Shown piece by piece: positions 1,707 through 60,504 of a DNA stretch of 64,000 bases. The stretch spans positions 124,001 to 188,000 of the forward strand of contig SUZJ01000002.1 in assembly GCA_015059945.1 (NCBI GenBank). The letters run 5' to 3'. The notes under the pieces are model-generated. The model was not told the DNA's origin and ran no database searches. It worked only from the letters and a program-made list of their open reading frames with translations. The translations under genes were made by a program, and so were the position numbers. Each line of letters starts with the position of its first letter. Within the stretch, counting starts at the first letter, position 1. This stretch comes from Rikenellaceae bacterium. Lineage in GTDB: Bacteria > Bacteroidota > Bacteroidia > Bacteroidales > Rikenellaceae.

Positions 1707-3092
<1,386 letters not shown>

Positions 3093-55131: not shown

Positions 55132-55158
55132 GTCGACCGTCAACCGTCAACCGTCAAT
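55132..55158. repeat. 7-mer array (CGACCGT CAACCGT CAACCGT CAA) upstream of pepT
   Basis: gtCGACCGTCAACCGTCAACCGTCAA. Confidence 0.88.
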
Positions 55159-55221: not shown

Positions 55222-55242
55222 CAATTTTCAATTTTCAATTCT
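55222..55242. repeat. 7-mer array CAATTTT CAATTTT CAATTCT at the OPT transporter stop
   Basis: Direct reading; the last unit overlaps the stop codon. Confidence 0.88.
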
Positions 55243-57232
55243 ATTTCGCTCTCTTAGCGTCCCAAATGAAGTAGGCGATAAGGGCAACATAGGTAGCTAC
55301 GCCCAGCCACTCGGCACCGCTCGATGCGTACCACTCGGTCATAAATGGATCTACGCCCAAGTATTTGAGCACCGCACTCACTACACCCATCAGGGCGCCA
55401 CCTGCAATAAAGCCCGATGCGATAAGGGTACCCCTGTCGCCACGTTTCTTGTTCACCTCGGCATCCTTCGAGCGAGTGGTTACAAACCAGCTAATCAGAC
55501 CACCCACCAGCAGCGGAGCGTTCAGCTCCAAGGGGATAAACATACCCAGCGCAAAGGCCAGTGCAGGTACGCCAATCATAGTCAGTATGAGCGACAGTGC
55601 AGCACCTGCAAAGTACAGCATCCAGGGCGTAGTGCCACCCGTCATCAGGGGTTTAATCACCGCAGCCATAGCGTTGGCCTGGGGAGCCACCAGGGCACCC
55701 TCGCCCGTAAAGCCGTAGGTCTTGTTGAGCACCATCATTACGCCCGCAACAGTAGCGGCCGACACCAGTGTGCCGAGGAACTTCCAACTCTGCTGCTTTT
55801 TGGGGGTTGTACCCACCCAGTAGCCAATTTTCAAGTCGGTAATGAAGCCACCCGCCATCGACAGAGCTGTACAAACTACGCCACCGATAATCATTGCAGC
55901 AGTCATACCGCTTGTGCCCTCCAAACCGATGCTCACCAGCACCAACGAGGCCAAGATGAGTGTCATCAGAGTCATACCGCTCACAGGGTTGCTACCTACA
56001 ATGGCAATAGCATTTGCGGCAACGGTGGTAAACAAGAATGCAATTACAAATACCACTACCAGTGCCACAGCCGACATCCACCAGTTATCCAATACGCCTA
56101 TGCGGAAGAATACCAGCGTTGCAACCAACAGCGCAATCAGCACAGCCAAGATAGTACGCATCGACATATCCTTGTCGGTACGCTTGGTCTGGCCACCCTG
56201 CTTGCTCCCTTTTAGCTCATTTACGGCCATCGAGAGCGAGCTCTTGATGATGCCTGCCTGCTTGATGATGCCAATGATACCCGCCATAGCAATACCACCA
56301 ATACCCAGTGGCTTGCCAATGTAGGCAAACAGGTTCTCGGGTGTGAAGATAGCCTCTGGATTGGCCAACAGCTTTGCGTCGGTAATGCCCAACAGGGCTA
56401 CCAAGTTCTGCGCATCCACGCCGGCCTCGAACGAGCCCACCATAGGTACAATTACAAACCATACCAAGAACGAGCCCGCACAGATGAAGGCTGCATATTT
56501 GAGGCCCACAATGTAGCCCAAGCCCAGTACGGCAGCCGAGGTGTTCAGCTTAAATACGGTCTTGAACTGGTCGGCCATATGCGCGCCCCAAGCGGTCAGT
56601 CGGGTAGTGATAGTGTCGGTCCACAGACCAAAGGTGCTGACCACAAAGTCATACAAACCACCAATCAGTCCGCTCACTGCCAACAGCTTGGCCTGTCCCT
56701 TCTGGCCCTCGCCACTAACCAATACTTCGGTTGTAGCGGTAGCCTCGGGGAATGGGTATACGCCGTGCATCTCCTTTACGAAGTACTTGCGGAATGGTAT
56801 GAGCAGCACAATGCCCAGCAGACCACCCAGCAGCGAGCTGAGGAAAATCTGATAGAACTTGGCCTCCAGTCCGAGGATGTAGAGTGCGGGCAGGGTAAAG
56901 ATTGCACCCGCCACAATCACGCCACTACTTGCGCCAATGCTCTGGATGATTACGTTTTGGCCGAGCATATTCTTTTTGCCCGTCATAGTGCCCACGCCCA
57001 CTGCTATAATAGCAATAGGTATGGCGGCCTCGAATACTTGGCCAACTTTCAGGCCCAGATAGGCTGCTGCGGCCGAGAAGATGATGGCCATCAGCACACC
57101 CATACCCACCGAGTAGGGCGTAACCTCTTTGGGTTGTTCGGCAGGGCCCATTATGGGCTCATACTCTTCGCCCTTGGCCAGTGGCCTGTAAGCGTTGTCT
57201 GCCAGTTTTTTGATTTGTTTGTTTTCCGACAT
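55241..57232 (-). CDS. OPT family oligopeptide transporter
   Basis: YSVGMGVLMAIIFSAAAAYLGLKVGQVFEAAIPIAIIAVGVG...MHGVYPFPEATATTEVLVSGEGQKGQAKLLAVSGLIGGLYDFV. Confidence 0.95.
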   Translation of the reverse strand: MSENKQIKKLADNAYRPLAKGEEYEPIMGPAEQPKEVTPYSVGMGVLMAIIFSAAAAYLGLKVGQVFEAAIPIAIIAVGVGTMTGKKNMLGQNVIIQSIGASSGVIVAGAIFTLPALYILGLEAKFYQIFLSSLLGGLLGIVLLIPFRKYFVKEMHGVYPFPEATATTEVLVSGEGQKGQAKLLAVSGLIGGLYDFVVSTFGLWTDTITTRLTAWGAHMADQFKTVFKLNTSAAVLGLGYIVGLKYAAFICAGSFLVWFVIVPMVGSFEAGVDAQNLVALLGITDAKLLANPEAIFTPENLFAYIGKPLGIGGIAMAGIIGIIKQAGIIKSSLSMAVNELKGSKQGGQTKRTDKDMSMRTILAVLIALLVATLVFFRIGVLDNWWMSAVALVVVFVIAFLFTTVAANAIAIVGSNPVSGMTLMTLILASLVLVSIGLEGTSGMTAAMIIGGVVCTALSMAGGFITDLKIGYWVGTTPKKQQSWKFLGTLVSAATVAGVMMVLNKTYGFTGEGALVAPQANAMAAVIKPLMTGGTTPWMLYFAGAALSLILTMIGVPALAFALGMFIPLELNAPLLVGGLISWFVTTRSKDAEVNKKRGDRGTLIASGFIAGGALMGVVSAVLKYLGVDPFMTEWYASSGAEWLGVATYVALIAYFIWDAKRAK

Positions 57233-57269
57233 AGGTGTCTATTTTGAGGATTATACTTTTCTCAACCTA

Positions 57270-57301
57270 CAAATATACAAATTCAAAATGCAAAATTCAA
57301 A
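57270..57301 (-). promoter_or_regulatory. Putative OPT promoter: -7 TATATTTG (57270-57277) and -33 TTTG supplied by a 7-mer unit (57298-57301)
   Basis: Plus-strand CAAATATA, 20-nt spacer, CAAA inside ATTCAAA. Confidence 0.45.
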
Positions 57302-57318
57302 ATTGAGAATTGAAAATT
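57281..57318. repeat. 7-mer array ATTCAAA ATGCAAA ATTCAAA ATTGAGA ATTGAAA
   Basis: Direct reading, immediately upstream of the OPT gene. Confidence 0.85.
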
Positions 57319-57320
57319 AT

Positions 57321-57457
57321 TTATGGGATTTATAGGATTTATAGGATTTATAGGATTGGTATTACTCCTATATCTCTTATATCTCTTATATCTCTTATAT
57401 CTCCTATTACTCTTATTTTCCTTGTGGCCCCTTAAACTCCCTAAGGCCCTTAAAAAT
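57321..57457. repeat. Long 9-mer tandem array, about 15 units in two polarities
   Basis: TTATGGGAT (TTATAGGAT)3 ... CCTATATCT (CTTATATCT)3 CCTATTACT CTTATTTTC ... CTTAAACTC CCTAAGGCC CTTAAAAAT. Confidence 0.92.
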
Positions 57458-57475
57458 CTTGCATTTTGAATTACC

Positions 57476-57518
57476 AAAAAAAAGGCCCTCCGATTTCTCG
57501 GAGAGCCTTTTCTTTTCA
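57476..57518 (-). terminator. Intrinsic terminator downstream of ppdK
   Basis: aaaaaaaaGGCcCTCCGatttCTCGGAGaGCCttttctttt. Confidence 0.88.
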
Positions 57519-57533
57519 TTGCTAAACCTCGGC

Positions 57534-60257
57534 TTATTTGAGAGCAGCCTGTGCCGCAGCCAGACGAGCGATAGGCACGCGGAAGGGCGAGCAGCTAACG
57601 TAGTCCAGACCTGCGGTGTGGCAGAACTCAACGCTCGAAGGCTCGCCACCGTGCTCACCACAAATACCGCACTTCAGCTCGGCACGGGTAGTACGGCCCT
57701 TCATAACGCCCTCGCGTACCAGACGGCCTACGCCGTTGCGGTCGAGAATCTTGAAGGGGTCGGCCTTGATGATGTTCTTGTCCAAATATACGGGCAGGAA
57801 CTTGCCAATATCGTCACGCGAGAAGCCCAGAGTCATCTGAGTCAAGTCGTTGGTACCGAACGAGAAGAACTCGGCAACCTCTGCAATCTGATCAGCGGTT
57901 ACTGCAGCCCTTGGTACCTCAATCATAGTACCTACCATATAGTCGATGCGGTCGTTGCGCTCGGCAAAGATCTCACCAGCTACGCGGTCGATAATGTTCT
58001 TCTGGTAGCGCAACTCTTTGTGGTTACCAACCAGAGGAACCATAATCTCTACCTTCACGGGGGTACCTTTCTCGCGGATGTTCATAGCAGCCTCCAAGAT
58101 AGCCCTGGTCTGCATCTCGGTAATCTCGGGATAGGTGTTACCCAGACGGCAACCACGGTGGCCCAGCATTGGGTTAACCTCCATCAGCGACTCAACCTTG
58201 GCAGCAATCTTCTCGTAGCTTACGCCCAGTACCTCTGCCAGCTCTTTCTGCTCCTTCTCGGTGTGGGGAACGAACTCGTGCAATGGTGGATCCAACAGAC
58301 GTACGGTCACGGGCAGACCCTGCATAGCCTCGAAGATACCCTCGAAGTCCTCCCTTTGCATAGGCAGCAGTTTGGCCAGAGCCACGCGACGACCAGCCTC
58401 GTCGTCGGCCAAAATCATTTCCCTAACGGCCAAGATACGGTCGCCCTCGAAGAACATATGCTCGGTACGGCACAGACCGATACCCTGTGCGCCAAACTTG
58501 ATAGCCTGTTTAGCATCGCGGGGCGAGTCGGCATTGGTGCGAACTTTCAGACGAGCATATTTGGTGGTCAAATCCATCAGCTTAGCGAAATCACCGCTCA
58601 GCTCAGCCTCTTTGGTAGCAACCTGGCCCAGGTAAACCTCGCCAGTCGAGCCGTTGAGCGAAATCCAGTCGTGCTCTTTGATTACCAAGCCGTCAATCTC
58701 GATGGTGCGCTCTTTGTAGTCGATTTTCAACTCGCCAGCACCCGAAACGCAGCATTTACCCATACCACGGGCAACCACAGCTGCGTGCGAGGTCATACCA
58801 CCGCGAGCGGTCAGAATACCTGCAGCATCCAACATACCCTTCAAGTCCTCGGGCGAGGTCTCGATACGTACCAAGATAGCTTTGATGCCGTGCTCCTGGA
58901 AGTACTTCTCGGCATCATCTGCAAAGAATACTACGGGACCGGTAGCAGCACCGGGGCTGGCGGGCAGACCCTTGGTGATAACCTTAGCGCTCTTGATAGC
59001 CTGTTTGTCAAATACGGGGTGCAGCAGCTCGTCGAGTTTCTCGGGCTCCTGACGCAGAATAGCGGTCTGCTCGTCGATGCGGCCCTCGGCCAACATATCC
59101 ATAGCAATCTTCACCATAGCAGCACCGGTACGTTTGCCGTTACGGGTCTGGAGCATCCACAGTTTACCGTCCTGAATGGTGAACTCCATATCCTGCATAT
59201 CGGTGAAGTAGTTCTCCAGGTGGTCTTTGATATCGCAGAGCTCTTTGTAAACCTCGGGCATAACCTCCTCCAACGAGGGGAACTGAGCAGCCCTTACAGC
59301 CTCGTCGATGTTCTGAGCCTTAGCCCAACGGCGCGAGCCCTCGAGGGTAATCTGCTGGGGGGTACGGATACCTGCTACAACGTCCTCGCCCTGTGCATTT
59401 ACCAGGTACTCGCCGTTGAAGATGTTCTCGCCAGTAGCGGCGTCACGCGAGAAGCAAACACCGGTAGCCGAGTTGTCACCCATATTACCAAATACCATTG
59501 CCATAACGCTCACTGCGGTACCCCACTCCTGAGGAATGTTGTTCAGCTTGCGGTACAGGATAGCCCTCTCGTTCATCCAGCTGCGGAATACGGCGCAGAT
59601 AGCACCCCACAACTGCTCCCAAGGATCAGCGGGGAAGTCCTTACCGGTGGTCTCCTTAACAGCGGCTTTGAACCTTACAACCAACTCTTTGAAGTCCTCG
59701 GCGGTCAGCTCGGCATCGTTCTTAACGCCTTTAGCCTCTTTAACCTCGTCGATAATAGCCTCAAAGGGGTCTACGTCCTCTTTCGATGCGGGCTTCATCT
59801 CCAATACCACGTCGCCATACATCTGTACGAAACGGCGGTACGAGTCCCAAGCGAAACGAGCGTTGCCGCTACGTTTGGTCAGAGCCTCTACGGCTGCATC
59901 GTTCATACCCAGGTTGAGGATGGTATCCATCATACCGGGCATCGAAGCGCGAGCACCCGAACGTACCGACAGCAGCAGGGGTGATACCTCGCTACCGAAT
60001 ATCATACCGGTCGACTCCTCAATGTTTTTGATAGCGGCCTCGACCTCGTCTTTAATCAACTCTTTAACTTTCTCCTCACCCTCTTTGTAGTACTCGGTAC
60101 ATACCTCGGTGGTGATAGTGAAACCTGGAGGCACGGGCATACCCAACAGGTTCATCTCGGCGAGGTTAGCACCCTTACCGCCGAGCAACTCTCTCATCTT
60201 GCCATTACCCTCGGCTTTACGGTCGCCAAAGGTGTAGACTCTTTTTACGTTTGCCAT
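57534..60257 (-). CDS. ppdK: Pyruvate, phosphate dikinase
   Basis: VKRVYTFGDRKAEGNGKMRELLGGKGANLAEMNLLGMPVPPGFTITTEVC...GGMTSHAAVVARGMGKCCVSGAGEL...ECGICGEHGGEPSSVEFCHTAGLDYVSCSPFRVPIARLAAAQA-type C-terminus. Confidence 0.98.
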   Translation of the reverse strand: MANVKRVYTFGDRKAEGNGKMRELLGGKGANLAEMNLLGMPVPPGFTITTEVCTEYYKEGEEKVKELIKDEVEAAIKNIEESTGMIFGSEVSPLLLSVRSGARASMPGMMDTILNLGMNDAAVEALTKRSGNARFAWDSYRRFVQMYGDVVLEMKPASKEDVDPFEAIIDEVKEAKGVKNDAELTAEDFKELVVRFKAAVKETTGKDFPADPWEQLWGAICAVFRSWMNERAILYRKLNNIPQEWGTAVSVMAMVFGNMGDNSATGVCFSRDAATGENIFNGEYLVNAQGEDVVAGIRTPQQITLEGSRRWAKAQNIDEAVRAAQFPSLEEVMPEVYKELCDIKDHLENYFTDMQDMEFTIQDGKLWMLQTRNGKRTGAAMVKIAMDMLAEGRIDEQTAILRQEPEKLDELLHPVFDKQAIKSAKVITKGLPASPGAATGPVVFFADDAEKYFQEHGIKAILVRIETSPEDLKGMLDAAGILTARGGMTSHAAVVARGMGKCCVSGAGELKIDYKERTIEIDGLVIKEHDWISLNGSTGEVYLGQVATKEAELSGDFAKLMDLTTKYARLKVRTNADSPRDAKQAIKFGAQGIGLCRTEHMFFEGDRILAVREMILADDEAGRRVALAKLLPMQREDFEGIFEAMQGLPVTVRLLDPPLHEFVPHTEKEQKELAEVLGVSYEKIAAKVESLMEVNPMLGHRGCRLGNTYPEITEMQTRAILEAAMNIREKGTPVKVEIMVPLVGNHKELRYQKNIIDRVAGEIFAERNDRIDYMVGTMIEVPRAAVTADQIAEVAEFFSFGTNDLTQMTLGFSRDDIGKFLPVYLDKNIIKADPFKILDRNGVGRLVREGVMKGRTTRAELKCGICGEHGGEPSSVEFCHTAGLDYVSCSPFRVPIARLAAAQAALK

Positions 60258-60414: not shown

Positions 60415-60504
60415 TAAGAGTTATAAGAGAAATAGGAGTTATAAGATTTTTATTTCTCCCATAACTCCCATTGCTCCTATTGCTCCTATTGCTCCTATCA
60501 CTTT
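60415..60504. repeat. 9-mer tandem array, ten units, inverted about its centre, abutting the pdxB stop
   Basis: TAAGAGTTA TAAGAGAAA TAGGAGTTA TAAGATTTT TATTTCTCC CATAACTCC CATTGCTCC TATTGCTCC TATTGCTCC TATCACTTT. Confidence 0.92.

Follow-up and report, generated by a model that had tools for sequence, protein, structure and literature searches.

Between two minus-strand genes, Rikenellaceae bacterium carries a block of short tandem repeats that raises three questions: what kind of element is it, how did it come to lie there, and does it act on the genes beside it? We approached these questions from a 64,000-nucleotide stretch of contig SUZJ01000002.1, hereafter the window. The two genes encode pyruvate, phosphate dikinase (ppdK, 57534-60257; TIGR01828, 1336 bits against a cut-off of 843) and an OPT family oligopeptide transporter (OPT, 55241-57232; TIGR00733, 261 bits against a cut-off of 182.5), which leaves a spacer at 57233-57533. 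The source genome, coded G000, is a draft assembly of 13 contigs; most of its relatives are likewise known from drafts, and the closest ones with a name are Tidjanibacter assemblies from the ruminant gut.

Taken from inverted end to inverted end, the element spans 57280-57472, both limits being deduced from the inverted repeat. On the plus strand it begins with five heptamers (AATTCAA, AATGCAA, AATTCAA, AATTGAG, and AATTGAA, 57280-57314; TRF 57279-57318, period 7, score 52), which run into a nonamer array at 57319-57357 (ATTTATAGG, 4.3 copies; TRF period 9, 96% matches, score 71) whose units read ATTTATGGG and then ATTTATAGG three times. A further nonamer array, CTCTTATAT/CTCCTATTA in six copies, occupies 57365-57418 in the orientation opposite to that of the ATTTATAGG array (TRF period 9, score 76). 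It continues in the same register into degenerate nonamers at 57419-57454 that alone fall below the TRF threshold, so that the units from 57365 onward are CTCCTATAT, CTCTTATAT three times, CTCCTATTA, CTCTTATTT, and then the degenerate TCCTTGTGG, CCCCTTAAA, CTCCCTAAG, and GCCCTTAAA. The total is five heptamers and about 14 nonamers in register, all within 57280-57454. Our own scorer gave repeat scores of 20.5, 27.5, and 31.5, whereas the region after dinucleotide shuffling never exceeded 16.5 in 500 trials (mean, 7.9). The sequence-only reading was right in its unit count and in that heptamers run directly into nonamers here, and no composite array in the window is longer; the extent it gave, 57281-57460, stopped slightly before the true end.

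The same reading described a 7-then-9 order and overlooked an inverted heptamer end on the right. The two ends mirror each other over 18 nt: the heptamer-built left terminal inverted repeat (AATTCAAAATGCAAAATT, 57280-57297, plus strand) is 94% complementary to the right one (AATCTTGCATTTTGAATT, 57455-57472, minus strand). Midway through the element the nonamers switch strand, and the two nonamer types stand in inverted pairing (57322-57355 versus 57366-57399, 71%). The full block is an imperfect palindrome of 193 bp with the order 7-9-9'-7', and RNA folding of 57275-57475 yields -45.7 kcal/mol (z of -3.15).

On one side, the element is bounded by the intrinsic terminator of ppdK (57476-57515, minus strand), an inverted repeat of 57476-57493 and 57498-57515 at 89%, and on the other by the OPT promoter. 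Because it comes after the terminator and before the promoter, it should be untranscribed spacer, not mRNA. A functional RNA hairpin at ppdK-OPT was ruled out on the basis of this position, and an RNA family search returned nothing above a gathering score. The terminator stem is unrelated in sequence among three species (57476-57515 of the window, G005, and L076) though ppdK is ∼94% identical, and terminators therefore appear to turn over too.

From its sequence and its orthologs, the OPT promoter looks like a sigma-ABfr promoter, with TAnnTTTG at -7 and TTTG near -33. The -7 box, TATATTTG (57277-57270, minus strand), matches the promoter consensus in PMC7366714, and TAnnTTTG is kept in 8/8 orthologs, each with TATATTTG or TACATTTG upstream of OPT. 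Six of the eight, including the OPT of the window, also have a TTG whose G precedes the -7 box by 20 to 21 nt. In the window this is a heptamer-derived TTTG at 57298-57301 (minus strand), whose G at 57298 lies 21 nt upstream. That a heptamer supplies the -33 TTTG of OPT had been proposed from the sequence and is correct, yet the match is weak evidence, because an array with TTTG every 7 bp fills every 7-nt window and would always supply one. Among TTTTGAA arrays, a correctly spaced TAnnTTTG adjoins in 4/27 cases. A scan for sigma-70 promoters, which is also the wrong sigma type, found no more sites than in shuffles.

Does the element belong to a family, and if so, what defines that family? No second full-length copy was found in the genus, where there are partial matches only, and this rules out a single MITE consensus for the repeats. 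Pieces of the element are present in 14/23 genomes of the genus and in 0/9 other genomes; among the 23, TCAAYTYT heptamer arrays occur in 11, TTAARG nonamers in 8, and hairpin modules in 11. The arrays are restricted in period. The G000 statistics cover 712 kb of 1.81 Mb (39% of the genome), with gene calls from a simple codon-usage model and thresholds that favor arrays with three or more units, and they include 60 intergenic arrays of period 7, 27 of period 9, and no more than 3 of any other period. Shuffled G000 intergenic sequence gave zero arrays. A count over four array-bearing genomes of the genus, made with a better gene model, put the non-coding arrays at 181 for period 7 and 119 for period 9, together with 21 and 11 for the multiples 14 and 18, and at no more than 4 for each remaining period.

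The arrays are unevenly distributed among genomes. Within the genus, G000, G005, G021, G022, and G025 class as array-rich and G001, G004, G007, G023, and G024 as array-free. None was found in 140 kb scanned outside genes in G009 or in 60 kb of G004, one was found in 60 kb of G001, and G028 has few. Elsewhere in the order, sampled members of other families contain few arrays, of mixed periods. In Alistipes at a greater distance, isolate L104 among them, arrays of periods 7 and 9 are built from different units. Within arrays, the mean Hamming distance between units grows with lag, from 0.69 through 1.01 and 1.20 to 1.66 for heptamers (2.06 between arrays) and from 1.42 through 1.97 and 2.42 to 2.73 for nonamers (3.18 between arrays). 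Units of separate arrays are nonetheless closer to one another than random intergenic DNA is (2.06 versus 3.08). Nonamer arrays are arranged as 16 inverted, 8 direct, and 24 undecided; for heptamer arrays (11 inverted, 13 direct, and 23 undecided), inversion is not the rule.

There is also a consistent layout relative to genes. The median distance to a gene end is 16 bp for heptamers and 83 bp for nonamers (p = 3e-14), and arrays occupy 9% of divergent gaps versus 28 to 30% of gaps in other arrangements. In the 712 kb of G000, 26 genes terminate inside an array or within 3 bp of one, and in many cases a TGA belonging to the array serves as the stop codon, giving array-encoded C termini such as ELKIEN and LRIEN. 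Different proteins share such an end (IEN, LRIEN, or ELKIEN) at G000 C2:59453, 77332, 102075, 112035, and other sites. Arrays at stop codons are oriented with stops in more frames in 48/64 informative cases (p = 8e-5); selection to keep a functional stop codon is enough to explain this orientation bias at gene ends. Before start codons, arrays of the GTCGAC/GTTAGAC type favor one orientation 18:1. We ruled out that the GTTAGAC-type arrays are an expanded general leader motif, as T.GAC precedes merely 3 to 6% of the starts of array-free genes. Both gene edges are occupied in the OPT-pepT gap of the window, where AATTTTC heptamers (55222-55240) touch the OPT stop and GTCAACC heptamers (55132-55157) stop 11 nt before the pepT start.

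Larger pieces recur along with the arrays. An 82-bp module, M1, is found at G000 C2:3708, 40611, 67979, and 168103 and at ∼17 more sites, nearly always inside heptamer arrays; one of its subfamilies sits in AATTCTC-type arrays and the other in GTTAGAC-type arrays, and the module and its flanking arrays seem to move together. Two perfect hairpins, CCCCTCTAACTTAGAGGGG and CCTCCCCTAACTTAGGGGAGG, account for 83 dispersed intergenic sites in G000. Elsewhere in the window, at 60415-60498, a pair of nonamer arrays in inverted orientation, TAAGAGTTA and then CTCCTATTG, has the architecture of the ppdK-OPT element; it lies immediately upstream of the ppdK start and adjoins the stop of a PdxB-like gene.

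How do such blocks change over time? At ppdK-OPT, gene order is kept in G005, where ppdK is 94% identical and a hairpin module shares the spacer with unrelated nonamers that span ∼400 bp, and also in L076, where the array is absent. The OPT promoter is conserved in G000, G005, and L076 despite this differing spacer content. In L076 (∼2780-3070), we noted by eye a piece resembling the C terminus of an AraC-family regulator, without the N-terminal part, between ppdK and OPT. The search of relatives for an exact empty site matching the 57280-57472 block found none; from the insertion history that relatives appear to record, we infer that the block arrived by insertion. The OPT-pepT gap is likewise conserved in the family, at 41 to 85 bp in several array-free species and with heptamer arrays of differing units in G000, L073-L075, L115, L095, L104, and L110.

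Insertion differences are directly visible at other loci. The L073 (G021) and L075 (G025) regions are 97% identical over 8.3 kb, and an AATTAGT-type array follows pepT in one of them and AGCGGTC x6 in L075, although the L075 contig ends soon after, which calls for caution. Across orthologous gaps of G021 and G025, species that are 95 to 97% identical, six arrays have equal length and one differs by 7 bp, these being comparisons between species. The remaining differences are, for the most part, whole blocks that were inserted or replaced. One array goes from ∼3 to ∼9 units with differing sequence, and an 87-bp module lies within one heptamer array. A 356-bp block in G021, which contains nonamers as well as hairpins and has a heptamer array at its end, corresponds in G025 to an empty site with a 3-bp GCT repeat. 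Near G021:C16 112600, there is also an insertion of 1.3 kb that opens with a reading frame and is missing at the matching G025 site (CTCCGGGTA).

What might mobilize these blocks? No Y1 transposase (PF01797) was found in G000, which is about 93% complete, or in any genome of the genus that carries the arrays; the only genome of the genus with one, G007, lacks matching arrays. A RAYT transposase as mobilizer is thereby ruled out, G000 having no Y1 domain. Reverse transcriptase occurs in G005, G021, and G026 only, and it was ruled out as the writer of the arrays because it is missing from array-rich G000 and its presence does not track arrays. No consistent target-site duplication, shared terminal sequence, or linked transposase was found.

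We read the element as a mosaic, MITE-like intergenic repeat. At a probability of roughly 0.58, our favored account is that this 193-bp non-coding composite repeat belongs to a family made by block insertion or replacement together with local unit duplication and tolerated between genes. Ready-made repeat modules would be inserted or swapped as blocks between genes, and single units would be duplicated locally, 7 or 9 bp at a time. Both routes appear to be needed, given the insertions and replacements, the likeness of neighboring units, and the apparent movement of M1 with its flanks. Arrays would then be tolerated wherever no gene is broken, whether downstream of a stop or terminator or upstream of a promoter or start codon. 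At ppdK-OPT, the outermost heptamer may simply happen to provide the -33 TTTG, in which case the OPT promoter was retained while the repeat took over its -33 half, and the block would have no regulatory function of its own.

Another explanation of the arrays is copying in place. Slippage of the polymerase that inherently favors 7 and 9 bp, with blocks that do not move, would account for the similarity of neighboring units, for the higher-order repeats of 14 and 18 bp, and for AGCGGTC x6 in L075 versus a single unit in L073, and it draws on the heptamer excess in bacteria and the polymerase-footprint slippage proposed for heptamers, as cited in PMC4692102. However, the same unit families stand at dozens of loci, block insertions contain arrays, and array-free sister genomes replicate with machinery of the same type; footprint slippage does not obviously give either period 9 or array-free sister species. 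We consider slippage alone improbable. Much the same standing, possible but doubtful, belongs to a lineage-specific process that writes or amplifies 7- and 9-nt repeats regardless of sequence, placing the 7-nt units at the margins of genes and the 9-nt units farther in, and whose factor the array-free sisters would lack. The possibility of an artefact comes from the draft state of the genome and most relatives, but chance or misassembly is extremely improbable, with scores far above shuffles, arrays conserved in two independently assembled species, and the isolate Alistipes muris DSM 112343 (L104) carrying heptamer arrays as well.

Could the arrays instead act on genes? A protein that binds DNA or RNA might recognize the units, making the arrays regulatory platforms, as proposed by MacGregor for TAACTGA repeats. 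Each genome does use few unit types, as the between-array distance attests, and orientation near starts is fixed for the GTCGAC/GTTAGAC type. But the units at one place differ by species, even between L073 and L075, the motif is missing from array-free genes, and the ppdK-OPT block lies where it should not enter an mRNA, all of which makes this role unlikely. Still less probable is a contingency locus in which slippage would tune OPT transcription by changing how many units there are, as the sequence-only reading had implied from tandem arrays beside a promoter with its -33 TTTG inside a heptamer. Gain or loss of 7 bp keeps the distance from TTTG to the -7 box, most array pairs are equal in length between species 95 to 97% identical, and arrays adjoin genes of all kinds, here of central metabolism; the tuning proposal is therefore unsupported. 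More generally, the guaranteed -33 match of a 7-bp period is a caution against reading promoter-side arrays as phase-variation switches.

That heptamers are over-represented among the tandem repeats of bacteria has called for an explanation ever since the excess was first reported. This system offers two unit lengths, a strict layout, and both array-rich and array-poor species in one genus. The origin of a fixed period can thus be tested through contrasts within a genus, including a pair that is 97% identical over ∼8 kb and has insertion differences.

How does the element compare with known systems? Our literature search found no description of a 7-plus-9 system. Like simple-sequence-repeat contingency loci, it has tandem repeats close to a promoter, but its 7/9-bp units are heterogeneous, lengths are mostly equal between close species, and a 7-bp step leaves the -33/-7 spacing unaffected. 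The hairpins CCCCTCTAACTTAGAGGGG and CCTCCCCTAACTTAGGGGAGG resemble REP/BIME in being dispersed intergenic palindromes, whereas the Y1 transposase that accompanies REP/BIME with RAYT is absent from G000 and array-bearing genus members. The closest known kinds are the heptameric intergenic repeats (PMC4679880, PMC4692102) and the BrickBuilt MITE of Porphyromonas gingivalis (PMC4596501). BrickBuilt is likewise an intergenic, multicopy, patchily distributed minisatellite array with inverted-repeat ends in the Bacteroidota, but it has one 23-bp unit and a constant leader and tail, whereas here the units are 7 and 9 bp, the heptamer ends vary, and there is no constant full-length element. Of the features of a MITE, the element has terminal inverted repeats (18 nt, 94%) but not many copies of one full-length sequence.

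The heptameric repeats include TAACTGA in Beggiatoaceae, Cyanobacteria, and Bacteroidetes, with indels in 7-nt steps (PMC4679880), and GGGAATC in Xanthomonas and Nostoc (PMC4692102). They too are short tandem heptamers, nearly all intergenic, near gene ends, and patchy by lineage, recurring between the same gene pairs with varying sequence and scarce between divergent genes. Here, by contrast, periods 7 and 9 are combined in one system with a fixed layout, units vary by species and position, composites include hairpin modules, and there is no G-quadruplex motif. Period 7 is enriched in non-coding DNA, as in heptameric repeats, but it is not the single period class, since period 9 is enriched as well (119 versus 181 arrays). 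In all, the element shares part of the definition of heptameric repeats and part of that of MITEs, and it thus fits neither kind fully.
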